Shown here in pieces: positions 13,655 through 63,983 of a stretch of DNA of 64,000 nt. The stretch is from Mesobacillus jeotgali. GTDB lineage: Bacteria > Bacillota > Bacilli > Bacillales > Cytobacillaceae. Under the pieces are notes generated by a model, which worked only from the letters and a program-made list of their open reading frames with translations, did no database searches and was not told the origin of the DNA. The stretch spans positions 124,001 through 188,000 of the forward strand of contig NZ_CP109811.1 in NCBI RefSeq assembly GCF_014856545.2, read 5' to 3'. The position numbers were made by a program, and so were the translations under genes. Every line of letters starts with the position of its first letter. The stretch's first letter is position 1.

Positions 13655-13998
13655 GGAAAGCGGTAAAAACTAAAGCGCTGCATTACCCGAAAATGGAAGA
13701 CGTAATTGAAACGGAAATCTAAAGCCTTGCATTGCCCGAAAGGAGCACATAAAAGAGAAAACGGTAAAAGCAGAAGCATTTCATTGCCCGAAAATGGAGC
13801 ATGAAAGAGAAAACGGTAAAAGAAGAAGCATTTCATTGCCCGAAAATGGAGCATGAAAGAGAGAACGGTAAAAGCAAAAGCAATTCTTTGCCCGAAAATG
13901 GAGCATAAAAGAGAAAACGGTAAAAGCAGAAGCTTGTTGCCCGAAGAAGGATCACCGAAATCAAAAAGGTAAAAGCAGAATCGCTGCCTTGCCTGTAA
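13655..13998 (+). repeat. Tandem repeat, 52-base period, about 7 units (family copy 1)
   Basis: A non-coding stretch between the tuf terminator and the rpsJ promoters. Units of the form CATTGCCCGAAAA...AAAACGGTAAAAGC recur with the CGG at 13661, 13712 (degenerate), 13762, 13814, 13866 and 13918, and a degenerate one near 13968. The central units are exactly 52 bases long. Within a unit CCG and CGG are 23 bases apart. The same period and spacing recur in the arrays at 39.0 and 62-63 kb. B. subtilis carries the gene ybaC at this position, which is missing here. Bases 13999-14115 hold nothing I can name. Confidence 0.9.
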
Positions 13999-14220: not shown

Positions 14221-14654
<434 letters not shown>

Positions 14655-38853: not shown

Positions 38854-38977
38854 AGAAATCATCCCTTCCTCTGTATTCTCGATTAGCTTGCCCTAATATG
38901 AACATATTCTGTGTTAGTAAATTAGAGGAAATAGAGCAGGCGGCTCGCACGAGGCATAGAGAGTAGATAATAGCGTC

Positions 38978-39092
38978 TACATTGCCCGAAAGCTCGGGAA
39001 CTAAGTCAAAACGGTAAAAGAAAAGCCTCTGCATTGCCCGAAAACGCAGGAACGAAGTCAAAACGGTAAAAGGAAAGTCTTTTCATTGCACC
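38978..39092 (+). repeat. Tandem repeat, 52-base period, two units (family copy 2)
   Basis: Two units CATTGCCCGAAA...AAAACGGTAAAAG with the CGG at 39012 and 39064, exactly 52 bases apart, and a third partial TTCATTGC at the end. CCG and CGG are 23 bases apart in both units, though the middle (for example GCTCGGGAACTAAGTC) differs from the other arrays. Oriented on +, although both flanking genes are on -. It fills most of the 305-base gap between the acidic-protein gene and the nuclease. Confidence 0.85.
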
Positions 39093-43705: not shown

Positions 43706-44347
43706 TTACTGTCCTCCAGAACCTCCGCCTGATTCTTCGCCGCCACCGCCTCCGGAACCTCCGCCGCCTTCTTCGGAGCCACCTTCAGGTTTCTGAGTTG
43801 GCATTTCCTCAGCAGCTTTGACAATCAATGCCTGAAGCTTTGCTTTGAATAATGGGCTTTCAAAGGTTTCAGTCATGACCTTTTGCAAATGCTCCCGGTA
43901 TTCTTTGCTTTTCAGCAAAGTGGTCAATTCCTTTTCAAGCTCCGGGTCTTTCATTACCTCAATCATCATGCCCTTATATTCTGGATCCTTCATAAGATCC
44001 TTTAACAGCTTTTCATTTTCCTTCTTCATGCTTTTTGCAACGCTCTCAGCGAATTTTGGATCTTCAAAGGATTTTTTCCAAAACTCCATGCCTTTTTCGG
44101 ATGTCATTGTTTTTTCGACTGTATCAATTACGACCGGCTGGTCCATTATTAGCTTTTCCTTCATGCCATCGTCACCCATGACTTCCTGAATCGCTTTTTT
44201 GCCATCGTCAGTCTTCAGGATATCGACAACCATCTTCTTTGTTTCCTCATAATCGACTTGCCCCCCTGCTGACTCGGCTGGAGCAGCGCAGCCGGCAGCT
44301 AAAAGTAAAAAGGAAGCAGGGAGTATATACTTCATGAGTTTCTTCAT
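43706..44347 (-). CDS. gerD: Spore germination lipoprotein GerD
   Basis: GerD, 213 residues from the ATG at 44347, is the spore inner-membrane lipoprotein that organises germinant receptors into the germinosome. The signal peptide ends in the lipobox LAAGC with C20 as lipidated residue. The body is helical with repeated acidic/basic patches (KDPEYKGMMIEVMKDPELEKEL). The last 30 residues are Gly/Glu/Ser-rich (GGGGSGGGGGEESGGGS), longer than in B. subtilis GerD (about 185). The start follows AAAGGGG by 8 bases; a GTG at 44365 includes that site. A sigma-G promoter lies just upstream. Confidence 0.93.
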   Translation of the reverse strand: MKKLMKYILPASFLLLAAGCAAPAESAGGQVDYEETKKMVVDILKTDDGKKAIQEVMGDDGMKEKLIMDQPVVIDTVEKTMTSEKGMEFWKKSFEDPKFAESVAKSMKKENEKLLKDLMKDPEYKGMMIEVMKDPELEKELTTLLKSKEYREHLQKVMTETFESPLFKAKLQALIVKAAEEMPTQKPEGGSEEGGGGSGGGGGEESGGGSGGQ

Positions 44348-44382
44348 CTTCCATTCCCCTTTCACATAGACAGCCCTAATTT

Positions 44383-60106: not shown

Positions 60107-61909
60107 ATGTGTGGAATCGTTGGATATATCGGAAGTAATGACTCGAAAGAGATTTTATTAAAAGGTCTGGAAAAGCTTGAGTATAGAGGGTATGACTCTG
60201 CGGGGATCGCAGTCATGAACGAAAAAGGAGTTCACGTTTTTAAGGAAAAAGGACGCATCGCGGACCTTCGCAATGCAGTGGACAATGATGTAATGGCCAA
60301 CGCTGGAATCGGCCATACTCGTTGGGCAACTCACGGTCCTCCAAGCAAGGTGAACGCTCACCCTCACCAGAGCACAACTGGCAGACTGACTCTTGTCCAC
60401 AATGGTGTCATCGAGAACTATGATCTATTGAAGCGCGAGTATTTGCAGAATGTCGAATTGAAAAGTGAAACAGACACTGAAATTATCGTCCAGTTAATCG
60501 AACTGTTCGTAAAAGAAGGTCTGAGCCTGGAAGAAGCCTTCCGTAAGACGCTTACACTTTTACATGGTTCATATGCACTTGCCCTTATAGATGAGCAAAA
60601 CGAAGACACGATTTTTGTGGCAAAAAACAAGAGCCCGCTTCTAGTCGGCCTTGGCGATGGCTTCAATGTTGTTGCCAGTGATGCAATGGCAATGATTCAG
60701 GTAACAAACCAATACGTTGAACTGATGGACAAGGAAATGGTCATTGTCACGAAAGACGAAGTGACAATCAAGAACCTTGAGGGAGAAGTGGTTTCACGCG
60801 CTCCTTACACTGCAGAACTTGATGCAAGCGATATTGAAAAGGGAACATACCCGCACTACATGCTCAAGGAAATCGACGAGCAGCCGCTTGTGATGCGTAA
60901 AATCATCCAGAACTACCAGGATGGCGAAGGCGCGCTTGAAATCGACTCTGACATCGTCGCTGCGATGAAGGAAGCAGATCGCATCTATATTATCGCTGCT
61001 GGTACTTCTTATCATGCAGGTCTTGTCGGCAAGCAGTTCATCGAGAAATTGGCGAAGATTCCTGTTGAAGTTCATATCTCAAGTGAATTCGGCTACAATA
61101 TGCCACTTCTATCTGAAAAGCCATTGTTCATCTTCATTTCACAGAGCGGAGAAACTGCGGACAGCCGCCAGGTTCTTGTTCAAGTGAAGGAAATGGGCTA
61201 CAAGGCTTTGACGATTACGAACGTACCAGGTTCAACACTTTCCCGTGAAGCAGATTACACTCTTCTTCTTCATGCTGGTCCGGAAATCGCGGTAGCTTCA
61301 ACAAAAGCATACACAGCACAGCTTGCTGTCCTGTCAATTTTGGCTGAAGTGACAGCTCGCGGTATGGGCCATGAAGTTGACTTCGACCTTGTACAGGAGC
61401 TGGGAATCGTGGCAACAGCGATGGAAGCTCTTTGCGATGACAAAGAAGAATTCGAAAGCATTGCACACGAATACCTGACTGTTACAAGAAACGCATTCTT
61501 CATCGGACGCGGAATTGACTTCTACGTGGGACTTGAAGGCGCGTTGAAACTGAAGGAAATCTCGTACATCCAGGCGGAAGGCTTTGCTGGCGGAGAATTG
61601 AAGCATGGAACAATTGCTTTGATCGAAGAAGGCACACCAGTCATCGCCCTTGCAACACAAGAATTTGTTAACCTGAGCATCCGTGGAAACGTCAAAGAAG
61701 TCGTTGCCCGCGGAGCAAACCCGTGCATCATCTCCATGAACGGACTGGAAACAGACGAAGACCGCTTCGTCATCCCAGAAGTGCACAGCCTATTAACACC
61801 TCTTATCTCAGTAATCCCGCTGCAGTTGATCTCATACTACGCAGCGCTGCACCGCGACTGTGACGTCGATAAGCCACGTAATCTGGCTAAATCAGTTACG
61901 GTTGAATAA
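60107..61909 (+). CDS. glmS: Glutamine-fructose-6-phosphate aminotransferase (isomerizing)
   Basis: GlmS, 600 residues, makes glucosamine-6-phosphate from fructose-6-phosphate and glutamine, the first step to UDP-GlcNAc. The N-terminal glutaminase domain starts with the catalytic C2 (MCGIVGYIG) after Met removal and has GHTRWATHG. Two SIS isomerase domains follow, with SQSGETADS near 345 and the C-terminal KSVTVE. The ATG follows AGGAGGAAAAGAAGTT. Expression is expected to be controlled by the ribozyme in its leader. Confidence 0.98.
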
Positions 61910-61920
61910 ATGTGTGTTGG

Positions 61921-61958
61921 AACCCAGTCAGCATTTGATGCTGGCTGGGTTTTTTTTG
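61921..61958 (+). terminator. Terminator after glmS
   Basis: AACCCAGTCAGCAT pairs with ATGCTGGCTGGGTT around a short loop (one G-U), followed by T6. The repeat array starts directly after it. Confidence 0.95.
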
Positions 61959-61969
61959 TTTTATTTAAG

Positions 61970-63090
61970 CCTCTGCATTGCCCGAAAAAGGAGACTGAGC
62001 ATTAAAACGGTAAAAGAAATGCCTCTTCATTTACCGAAAAAGGAGACTGAGCATTAAAACGGTAAAAGAAACACCTCTGCATTTACCGAAAAAGAAGAAT
62101 GAGCATTAAAACGGTAAAAGAAATGCCTGTTCATTTACCGAAAAAGGAGACTGAGCATTAAAACGGTAAAAGAAATAGCCTGTTCATTTACCAAAAAAGA
62201 AGAATGAGCATTAAAACGGTAAAAGAAACACCTCTGCATTTACCGAAAAAGAAGACTGAGCATTAAAACGGTAAAAGAAATGCCTCTTCATTTACCTAAA
62301 AGGGGACTGAGCATTAAAACGGTAAAAGAAACCTCTTCATTACCTGGGACTGACATTAACGTAAAAAAAGCCTGTGCATTACCGAAAAGACTGAGCATTA
62401 AAACGGTAAAAGAAATGCCACTCATTTACCTAAAAGGGACTGAGCATTAAAACGGTAAAAGAAACACCTCTGCATTTACCGAAAAAGACTGAGCATTAAA
62501 ACGGTAACAGAAATGCCTGTTCATTTACCGAAAAAGGAGACTGAGCATTAAAACGGTAAAAGAAATGCCACTTCATTTACCTAAAAAGGGGACTGAGCAT
62601 TAAAACGGTAAAAGAAACACCTCTGCATTTACCGAAAAAGAAGACTGAGCATTAAAACGGTAAAAGAAACACTTCTGCATTTACCGAAAAAGAAGAATTA
62701 GGATTAAAATGGTAAAAGAAATGCCTGTTCATTTACCGAAAAAGGAGACTGAGCATTAAAACGGTAAAAGAAATGCCTCTTCATCCTAAAAAGGGGACTG
62801 AACATTAAAACGGTAACAGAAATGCCTGTTCATTTACCGAAAAAGGAGACTGAGCATTAAAACGGTAAAAGAAATGCCTGTGCATTTACCGAAAAAGAAG
62901 AATGAGCATTAAAACGGTAAAAGAAATGCCACTTCATTTACCTAAAAAGGGGACTGAGCATTAAAACGGTAAAAGAAACACCTCTGCATTTACCGAAAAA
63001 GAAGAATGAGCATTAAAACGGTAAAAGGAGCGTCTCTTCATTTACCGAAAAAGTGAATTAGTGCTGAAAGGTAAAAGCAGAGTCTCTCCT
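61970..63090 (+). repeat. Large tandem array, 52-base period, about 22 units (family copy 3)
   Basis: The CGG of each CATTTACCGAAAAA...GCATTAAAACGGTAAAAGAAA unit is at 62008, 62060, 62112, 62164, 62217, 62269, 62320, 62360 (degenerate), 62404, 62453, 62502, 62554, 62606, 62658, 62710, 62762, 62811, 62863, 62915, 62967, 63019 and near 63069. Most steps are exactly 52 bases; the exceptions are small indels or a decayed unit at 62340-62400. TTTACCG and CGGTAAA within a unit are complementary with 23 bases between CCG and CGG. Units alternate between types (GGAGACTGAGC and GAAGAATGAGC), showing repeated duplication. No long open frame has a ribosome-binding site, and 52 is not a multiple of three. 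Confidence 0.95.
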
Positions 63091-63119: not shown

Positions 63120-63983
63120 TTAAAGAAAATACCGTGTATTTCTTTCGCCCAGTGATTCCAAATTCGAAAGAAGTATCCGTCTAACCGATTTTAAGGGTAC
63201 TACGCCATTACACCATTCATGAACCAAAGATGTGGTCACTTTTTTATCTGGTAATAAGAGCTTGAGTTCACCTACACTCCGGAGTACTGCAGTATCAATT
63301 TTTTCATGACTGCCGCAGTGACTGCACACTAACTCCCTTTTCACAACCACGTCCACAAACGAATGACACTCTCCACAAACAATACCTTTTTTCAACTGTT
63401 CATACTCATACTTCGGTACTCGTTTATAGGGATTATCCACTGTATGCAACTCAAGCAGCTTGTCGGCAATCTTCTGATGAAGGTTATTCAGAGTGGATTG
63501 TCTTTTATTCAACTTTTTCATAAAGCGGTTCAGCTGGCTGGGTAAGATGATAGGTGCATTCTTTGGGGCCTGATACAGGGTGAACTCGGGGTTGATGAAT
63601 AAGACATAGGATTCAACCTCTAGGTGAAAGCCGAGGCTGGATAGCAGTTGGCGAAAGAGAGAGGTACTACGCTTTAACTGGATCAGGGGATCTTTAATTT
63701 CTTCGCCATTGATGATTTTGAGGCGTTCGTCTTCGTAGTAGTAGTCACCTTCGTAATCTTTTACCTCGAATAGTAGAATTTTATTCTGCGTAATGACACT
63801 AGAATCAATCTGGAACGTGGTGCTGCTTGCCTCGAGGAGGAGGTCGTTCAACGTCAGGTTTTGTATCTCAAGGCTTTGCATCCATATGTCGTATTGGACT
63901 TCACCTTTGTAGCCTTTCCTCAGGCTATAGTGTCTCTGCTTGTCTTTTTCCGTGAAGATCATTCGTGGTTCCAGGAGATTCAT
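63120..63983 (-). CDS. NERD-domain protein with C-terminal zinc ribbon
   Basis: A 287-residue protein with an N-terminal NERD (nuclease-related) domain, about residues 22-135: GYKGEVQYD, D60, the E-x-K pair E73/K75 (LLFEVKDYEGDYY) and Q102xxR fit the PD-(D/E)XK-like fold. A zinc ribbon follows at C203, C206, C220 and C223. The C-terminal part is basic and helical, perhaps DNA-binding. The function of this class is not well known; a role in DNA processing is inferred. The start at 63983 has no clear ribosome-binding site and an ATG at residue 8 is an alternative. It is convergent with glmS across the repeat array. Confidence 0.82.
   Translation of the reverse strand: MNLLEPRMIFTEKDKQRHYSLRKGYKGEVQYDIWMQSLEIQNLTLNDLLLEASSTTFQIDSSVITQNKILLFEVKDYEGDYYYEDERLKIINGEEIKDPLIQLKRSTSLFRQLLSSLGFHLEVESYVLFINPEFTLYQAPKNAPIILPSQLNRFMKKLNKRQSTLNNLHQKIADKLLELHTVDNPYKRVPKYEYEQLKKGIVCGECHSFVDVVVKRELVCSHCGSHEKIDTAVLRSVGELKLLLPDKKVTTSLVHEWCNGVVPLKSVRRILLSNLESLGERNTRYFL

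Follow-up and report, generated by a model that had tools for sequence, protein, structure and literature searches.

Many tandem arrays of a 52-bp unit in Mesobacillus jeotgali and its relatives share a dyad layout whose arms change on both sides, keep an asymmetric C/T pair and are oriented with replication independently of gene direction. The layout, the two-sided arm change, the kept mismatch, the replication polarity and a core shared by many of them (GAC-N27-GTC) go beyond the published description of the repeat class to which these arrays belong.

The main array and its repeat class

The tandem array that a sequence-only reading had described was confirmed at 61969..63077 on the + strand of the window (the whole stretch of 64,000 nucleotides analysed), with a 52-base period, 21 recognisable units and one decayed 22nd unit at about 62328-62372 (+). 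Tandem Repeats Finder placed it at 61969-63053 (period 52, 21.4 copies, 85% matches, score 1482), and a pattern scan returned 21 units from 61976 to 63076. The typical element, CATTTACCG-N23-CGGTAAAAG, is 41 nt long, and the linker is 11 nt. Exact TTTACCG-N23-CGGTAAA arms were present in 10 of the 21 units, the others being off by one base or an indel. Unit-to-unit steps were exactly 52 in 13 of 20 cases and 46-53 in the remainder, except for one step of 88, which runs across the decayed unit. Convergent ORFs flank the array, glmS at 60107-61909 (+) and another ORF at 63120-63983 (-), and an intrinsic terminator-like hairpin with a T run, recognised by eye, lies 3' of glmS just before the array (61921..61957, +). 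The first unit (61976..62016, +) is the sole one of the 21 with a clear C (left)/T (right) mismatch, and the units after it mostly have A-T where this pair would sit. GAC-N27-GTC was not found in the main array, where TAC and GTA are typical at those places. The general rules for the C/T pair and the core therefore lean more on the relatives of the main array than on the array itself.

The claim that the array is the largest member of a dispersed family was supported by genome-wide matches. A degenerate 40-base pattern with at most 3 mismatches matched 42 times in the 4.84-Mb genome and its reversed form 0 times, indicating that the family is not a product of chance. R1, a sequence-only model, gave 88 matches at E ≤ 1 from 150 scored candidates, the weakest of them probably chance, and the main array was the longest among these listed matches. 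The window holds two further arrays of the family, one after tuf (13722..13933, +; 4 good units with weaker ones on either side) and one of 2 units (38972..39089, +), which has the leading-strand orientation, with both neighbouring ORFs on the - strand. At E ≤ 1e-3, R1 matched 15 of 81 genomes, comprising 14 of 21 in the genus and 1 of 60 outside it; the latter, G037 from another genus, had a single weak match (E 7e-4). In a named scan, 20 of 21 matching loci were in Mesobacillus species or Bacillus sp. ISL strains, and the remaining one was in a Riflebacteria MAG. One further locus of this genome (342064-342519) has 9 units with TTTACCC/CGGTAAA arms, no C.T pair and lagging orientation; it was absent among the listed matches of the model R2 and lies outside the 49 polarity loci described below.

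The same reading held that the unit matched no known repeat class, which proved wrong. Tandem repeats of 52 nt with constant size and variable sequence have been catalogued in 176 Bacillus genomes, with no function assigned (Subirana & Messeguer 2021, PMC8161180), and the main array belongs to them. The outcome that the reading had named as refuting it, a match in the catalogued repeats, thus holds at the level of the class and not for a known mechanism. The arrays studied here have in common with that class a period of 51-53, a non-coding location and many sequence families per genome, together with short signals often accompanied by their reverse in one repeat, species specificity and 20-21 nt arrays alongside. 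PMC8161180 names selenatarsenatis, boroniphilus and subterraneus, and its tables hold species now placed in Mesobacillus, with 82 arrays for B. selenatarsenatis, 49 of them of 51-53 nt. The repeat families are described there as lacking sequence conservation, and the main text and tables make no mention of fixed arm geometry, covariation, a conserved mismatch or replication polarity.

The features of the class were found in our material: the main array has a period of 51-53 with at least 4 units, several unrelated sequence families of one period occur per genome, and the sequence families are genus-specific. Systematic sampling of 400 kb of this genome, as 20 stretches of 20 kb at even spacing, yielded 9 arrays of period 52-53 with differing sequences, which projects to about 110 per genome. 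The same 400 kb (L061-L080) contained 10 arrays of period 20-21, which are thus as common as the 52-bp arrays. Five other genomes of the genus had 13 of the 52-53 arrays in 400 kb. Of six genomes from other genera, G039 had 5 arrays with other arms in 80 kb, and the other five had none of period 50-54 in 320 kb, indicating that the class is not essential in Bacillales. The merging rule of this survey displayed two of the window's three arrays.

All 27 sampled arrays lay in inter-ORF gaps once ORFs mostly inside arrays had been removed, and 6 of them overlapped an ORF edge by 13-168 bases; in a later set, a comparably crude ORF rule put 9 of the 49 loci inside some ORF. The convergent-gene setting noted in the sequence-only reading holds for the main array itself and is not typical, as 16 of the 27 arrays were between co-directional, 6 between divergent and 5 between convergent genes, against a background of 285, 97 and 82. 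A preference for convergent genes was therefore rejected. Within 52-bp arrays, higher-order periods (104 or 155 bp) were seen at 2632510-2633046 (L054) and 1253781-1254042 (L066) of G000 and at the tuf loci of G009 and G001, suggesting that arrays are probably extended by block duplication.

Dyad layout and change at orthologous sites

We assessed inverted repeats in 45 fetched arrays of period 50-54. In 23 of them the inverted repeat was equalled in no more than 3 of 60 shuffles, with the larger arm-centre spacing at 30-36 in 16 of the 23, and in the other 22 this shuffle test gave no significant dyad. Within the systematic samples, the dyad was present in 8 of 9 arrays of this genome, 17 of 22 of the genus and 1 of 5 of G039. 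Published consensus repeats of other species had a dyad at p ≤ 0.05 in 20 of 27 cases (about 1.4 expected), with the larger arm-centre spacing at 32-36 in 14 of the 20, and no significant dyad in 7; these 27 families are not fully independent, those of horikoshii and m3-13 being nearly alike. The GAC-N27-GTC core occurred in 22 of the 45 arrays, any other gap reaching at most 2, and in 6 of the 27 published repeats, for which 300 shuffles averaged 0.14 with a maximum of 2. It was also present in 15 of 22 systematically sampled arrays of the genus and in 3 of 5 of G039.

The tuf-rpsJ interval was compared across 20 genomes of the genus. Tandem Repeats Finder detected a 52-bp array in 13 of them, and a position matrix without pairing terms, its seeds brought into phase on the arms by visual inspection, found units scoring at least 20 in 17; of the other three, G004 is cut off, G008 has no units and G018 has weak ones only. 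At this threshold 77 of 88 units were retained and 11 dropped, leaving 69 distinct units. The sequences at this orthologous site differ in kind (CATTGCCCG..CGGTAAAAG, ATGTGCCCG..CGGTCACAT, CTCCGCCCG..CGGTCGCAG and ATGTGCGGATAA..TTATCGTCACAT), so that other genomes of the genus carry arrays of other sequence families, and decayed copies often retain the 52-bp step. The arm pairs vary on both sides: position 1/41 is A-T or C-G, 8/34 is C-G or G-C, and 9/33 is G-C or A-T. Position 6/36 is C.T (a left C and, 30 bases on, a right T) in 63 of the 69 distinct units. Outside the genus, such an array was found at 1 of 25 tuf loci (G094).

Covariation in alignment A2 (62 tuf-site units) was 0.335, compared with 0.142 ± 0.013 after shuffling and no more than 0.119 when pairs were slid, and 90 cells were changed on both sides against 35 for shuffles. 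Pairs with two-sided change (8 vs 8.0 shuffled) and further pair types (16 vs 15.4) stood at shuffle level, and these two of the five measures are those less swayed by relatedness. When right halves were shuffled among the 17 genome consensuses, the observed pairing was reached in 0 of 2000 trials. These results indicate that the dyad matters, since the arms change on both sides. Among 759 cells there were 18 G.T, 18 A.C and 147 other mismatches, and neither strand favours wobble; the balance of G.T and A.C points to DNA rather than RNA. The hairpin-forming unit proposed in the sequence-only reading thus stood in part: the dyad is kept across species, whereas arm pairing on 30 units of this genome (76.7%) was not above shuffled pairing (77.8%). 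Together with the lack of a wobble excess, this does not indicate a folded RNA.

Turnover was also seen downstream of glmS in 20 genomes, the comparison using 20 of 26 matches, which excluded second copies and the fragmentary G010. Arrays of 51-52 bp started within about 160 bases past the gene in G000, G016 and G017, and three further genomes had 52-bp arrays about 1.1-1.2 kb off. In seven genomes (G003, G005, G008, G012, G013, G018 and G020), arrays of 20-21 (or 40-42) were found instead.

Orientation along the replichores

Because of the C/T asymmetry, each element can be assigned a direction. A covariance model, R2, was applied to three closed genomes, and its listed matches (in one list, some 150 out of 164) gave 19 loci in G000, 14 in G009 and 16 in G016. 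Of these 49 loci, 48 read along the leading strand, and the sole exception, at 627 kb, has A-T in place of C.T. With neighbouring genes called by a simple ORF rule, the leading orientation was kept at 10 of 10 loci with a lagging-strand ORF on either side and at 12 of 12 with mixed neighbours. A pattern that left the 23-base loop unconstrained gave 15-140 matches per genome compared with 0-1 for the reversed pattern. In a tally of G009, G011, G017 and G019, made without G000 and G016, 49 of 51 of its loci were leading, the two others being an isolated match and a locus close to the terminus.

A second superfamily, CGGCCA-N25-TGTCCG, was leading at 26 of 28 loci (five genomes, hand count); one exception was lagging and one had both orientations. 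The C and T are 30 bases apart in the first family and in this one alike. For both superfamilies in this genome, 29 of 30 loci were leading (p 2.9e-8 against one half and 2.0e-3 against an assumed 0.75). The replichores were supported by GC skew, with terminus positions approximate and the origins of the rotated assemblies (G016 and G019) placed from the position of tuf. The polarity was observed in six genomes of one genus, whose loci are partly orthologous, and R2 had no match at E ≤ 0.02 in the outgroups G030, G042 and G044. Purine-rich loops were rejected as the cause of the polarity, because units with T-rich loops (G017 3196207-3196345 and G019 2961799) keep the C/T polarity. Orientation also follows replication in KOPS/SRS and Chi, which are single short motifs and not dyads in 52-bp arrays.

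Candidate explanations

The likeliest mechanism, which we put forward tentatively, is that the arrays are phased half-sites bound as DNA by a candidate factor linked to replication or segregation. In this genus the typical unit comprises a 41-bp element, made of two inverted half-sites and a centre of about 25 bp, and an 11-bp linker, which repeats the half-sites at intervals of 52 bp, or about five helical turns. The factor would bind these half-sites as DNA and would read the C/T asymmetry, by which it would be loaded or oriented along the replichore, and the arrays would offer it many phased sites. Block duplication or unequal exchange probably extends the arrays and keeps them homogeneous. 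We infer protein binding of the half-sites and a role in replication or segregation, the role being suggested by an orientation that is independent of genes and locked to replication.

A wider reading, which is possible if doubtful, is that these are replication-polar chromosome elements with a shared dyad geometry, often the GAC-N27-GTC core and a kept C/T pair, read by a dedicated factor that follows or directs the fork or translocation. If true, this would be a bacterial satellite system with direction. Why certain bacteria maintain from tens up to roughly a hundred 52-bp arrays of differing sequence is a published puzzle, and the common layout, the surviving asymmetric pair and the replication polarity make the puzzle testable through the questions of which reader is involved and what inversion of an array does.

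The next best explanation after a DNA-binding factor, an unlikely one, is a single-stranded DNA element. The unit would fold imperfectly into a hairpin on the lagging-strand template and would be spread or amplified by a REP/RAYT-like enzyme or another single-strand DNA recombinase, and the polarity would mark the exposed strand. The imperfect dyad with its kept mismatch, the polarity locked to replication, the dispersed families, the tandem growth and one Y1_Tnp match in this genome are consistent with it. However, Y1_Tnp (PF01797) had no match at E ≤ 0.001 in the array-bearing G016 and G094 and did match in G030, G042 and G044, each of which had no array of period 50-54 in 80 kb. Since the presence of the gene does not track that of the arrays, RAYT/REP mobility is disfavoured, although another enzyme may act.

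The view in the sequence-only reading that the array is neither REP nor CRISPR held, as the main array has the features of neither. REP elements, as described in PMC3733652, span 20-40 bp, have short loops and carry GTAG or CGTC as an unpaired tag, and head-to-tail pairs are rare. The elements studied here resemble REP/BIME in being intergenic imperfect palindromes in many copies, but they are 41 bp long with about 25 bp between the arms (23 bases in the main array), run head-to-tail at 52 and do not require Y1_Tnp. Neither GTAG nor CGTC was found in main-array units; CGTC occurs in some tuf-site families, but inside the arm. A regular array with conserved and variable parts also recalls CRISPR, but there are many arrays per genome and their centres are homogenised and nearly identical within an array, in place of unique spacers between identical repeats.

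A neutral satellite is quite unlikely, a case in which slippage and quasi-palindrome template switching would make and perfect the dyads and 52 would be a by-product. Template switching would likewise yield two-sided changes without wobble. Mutations of that type are described in PMC3820800. The fast turnover after glmS and between species, the homogenised array-specific centres and the higher-order periods of 104 or 155 bp also agree with such a satellite. Under neutral turnover, however, the C.T mismatch should be lost, yet it is retained in 63 of 69 units amid neighbouring positions that vary, and its survival suggests more than a perfecting mutation process. It also leaves unexplained the polarity and a core common to several genera.

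We regard an RNA-level element (a small RNA, an mRNA 3' end or a terminator array) as very unlikely. Satellite transcripts of 52 nt are reported in B. coagulans (PMC8625621), and the main array follows a terminator-like hairpin, but G.T is not above A.C, the 27 arrays showed no preference for a gene arrangement, orientation is indifferent to neighbouring genes, and no Rfam family reached its gathering score on the array. These wobble, Rfam and gene-context results accordingly disfavour an RNA hairpin or terminator.

Polar fork barriers of the RTP/Ter type would share asymmetric dyads with one polarity per replichore, but they are highly improbable, as the sites are spread over the whole chromosome and RTP (PF02334) was over the cut-off in 0 of 12 genomes, with weak sub-cut-off matches in G011 and G016. 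A viral or plasmid origin was disfavoured: 55 viral contigs each had a single match to a 15-base gapped pattern, presumed to be chance, and 366 bases of the main array had no plasmid match.

Two other features were observed in the window. The Rfam S10-Clostridia ribosomal protein leader matched at 14231-14333 (39.1 bits, gathering score 35.1), upstream of the ORF at 14346, which we take to be rpsJ. A 36-base tandem repeat at 43713-43783 lies within the minus-strand ORF 43706-44365 and probably encodes protein repeats.
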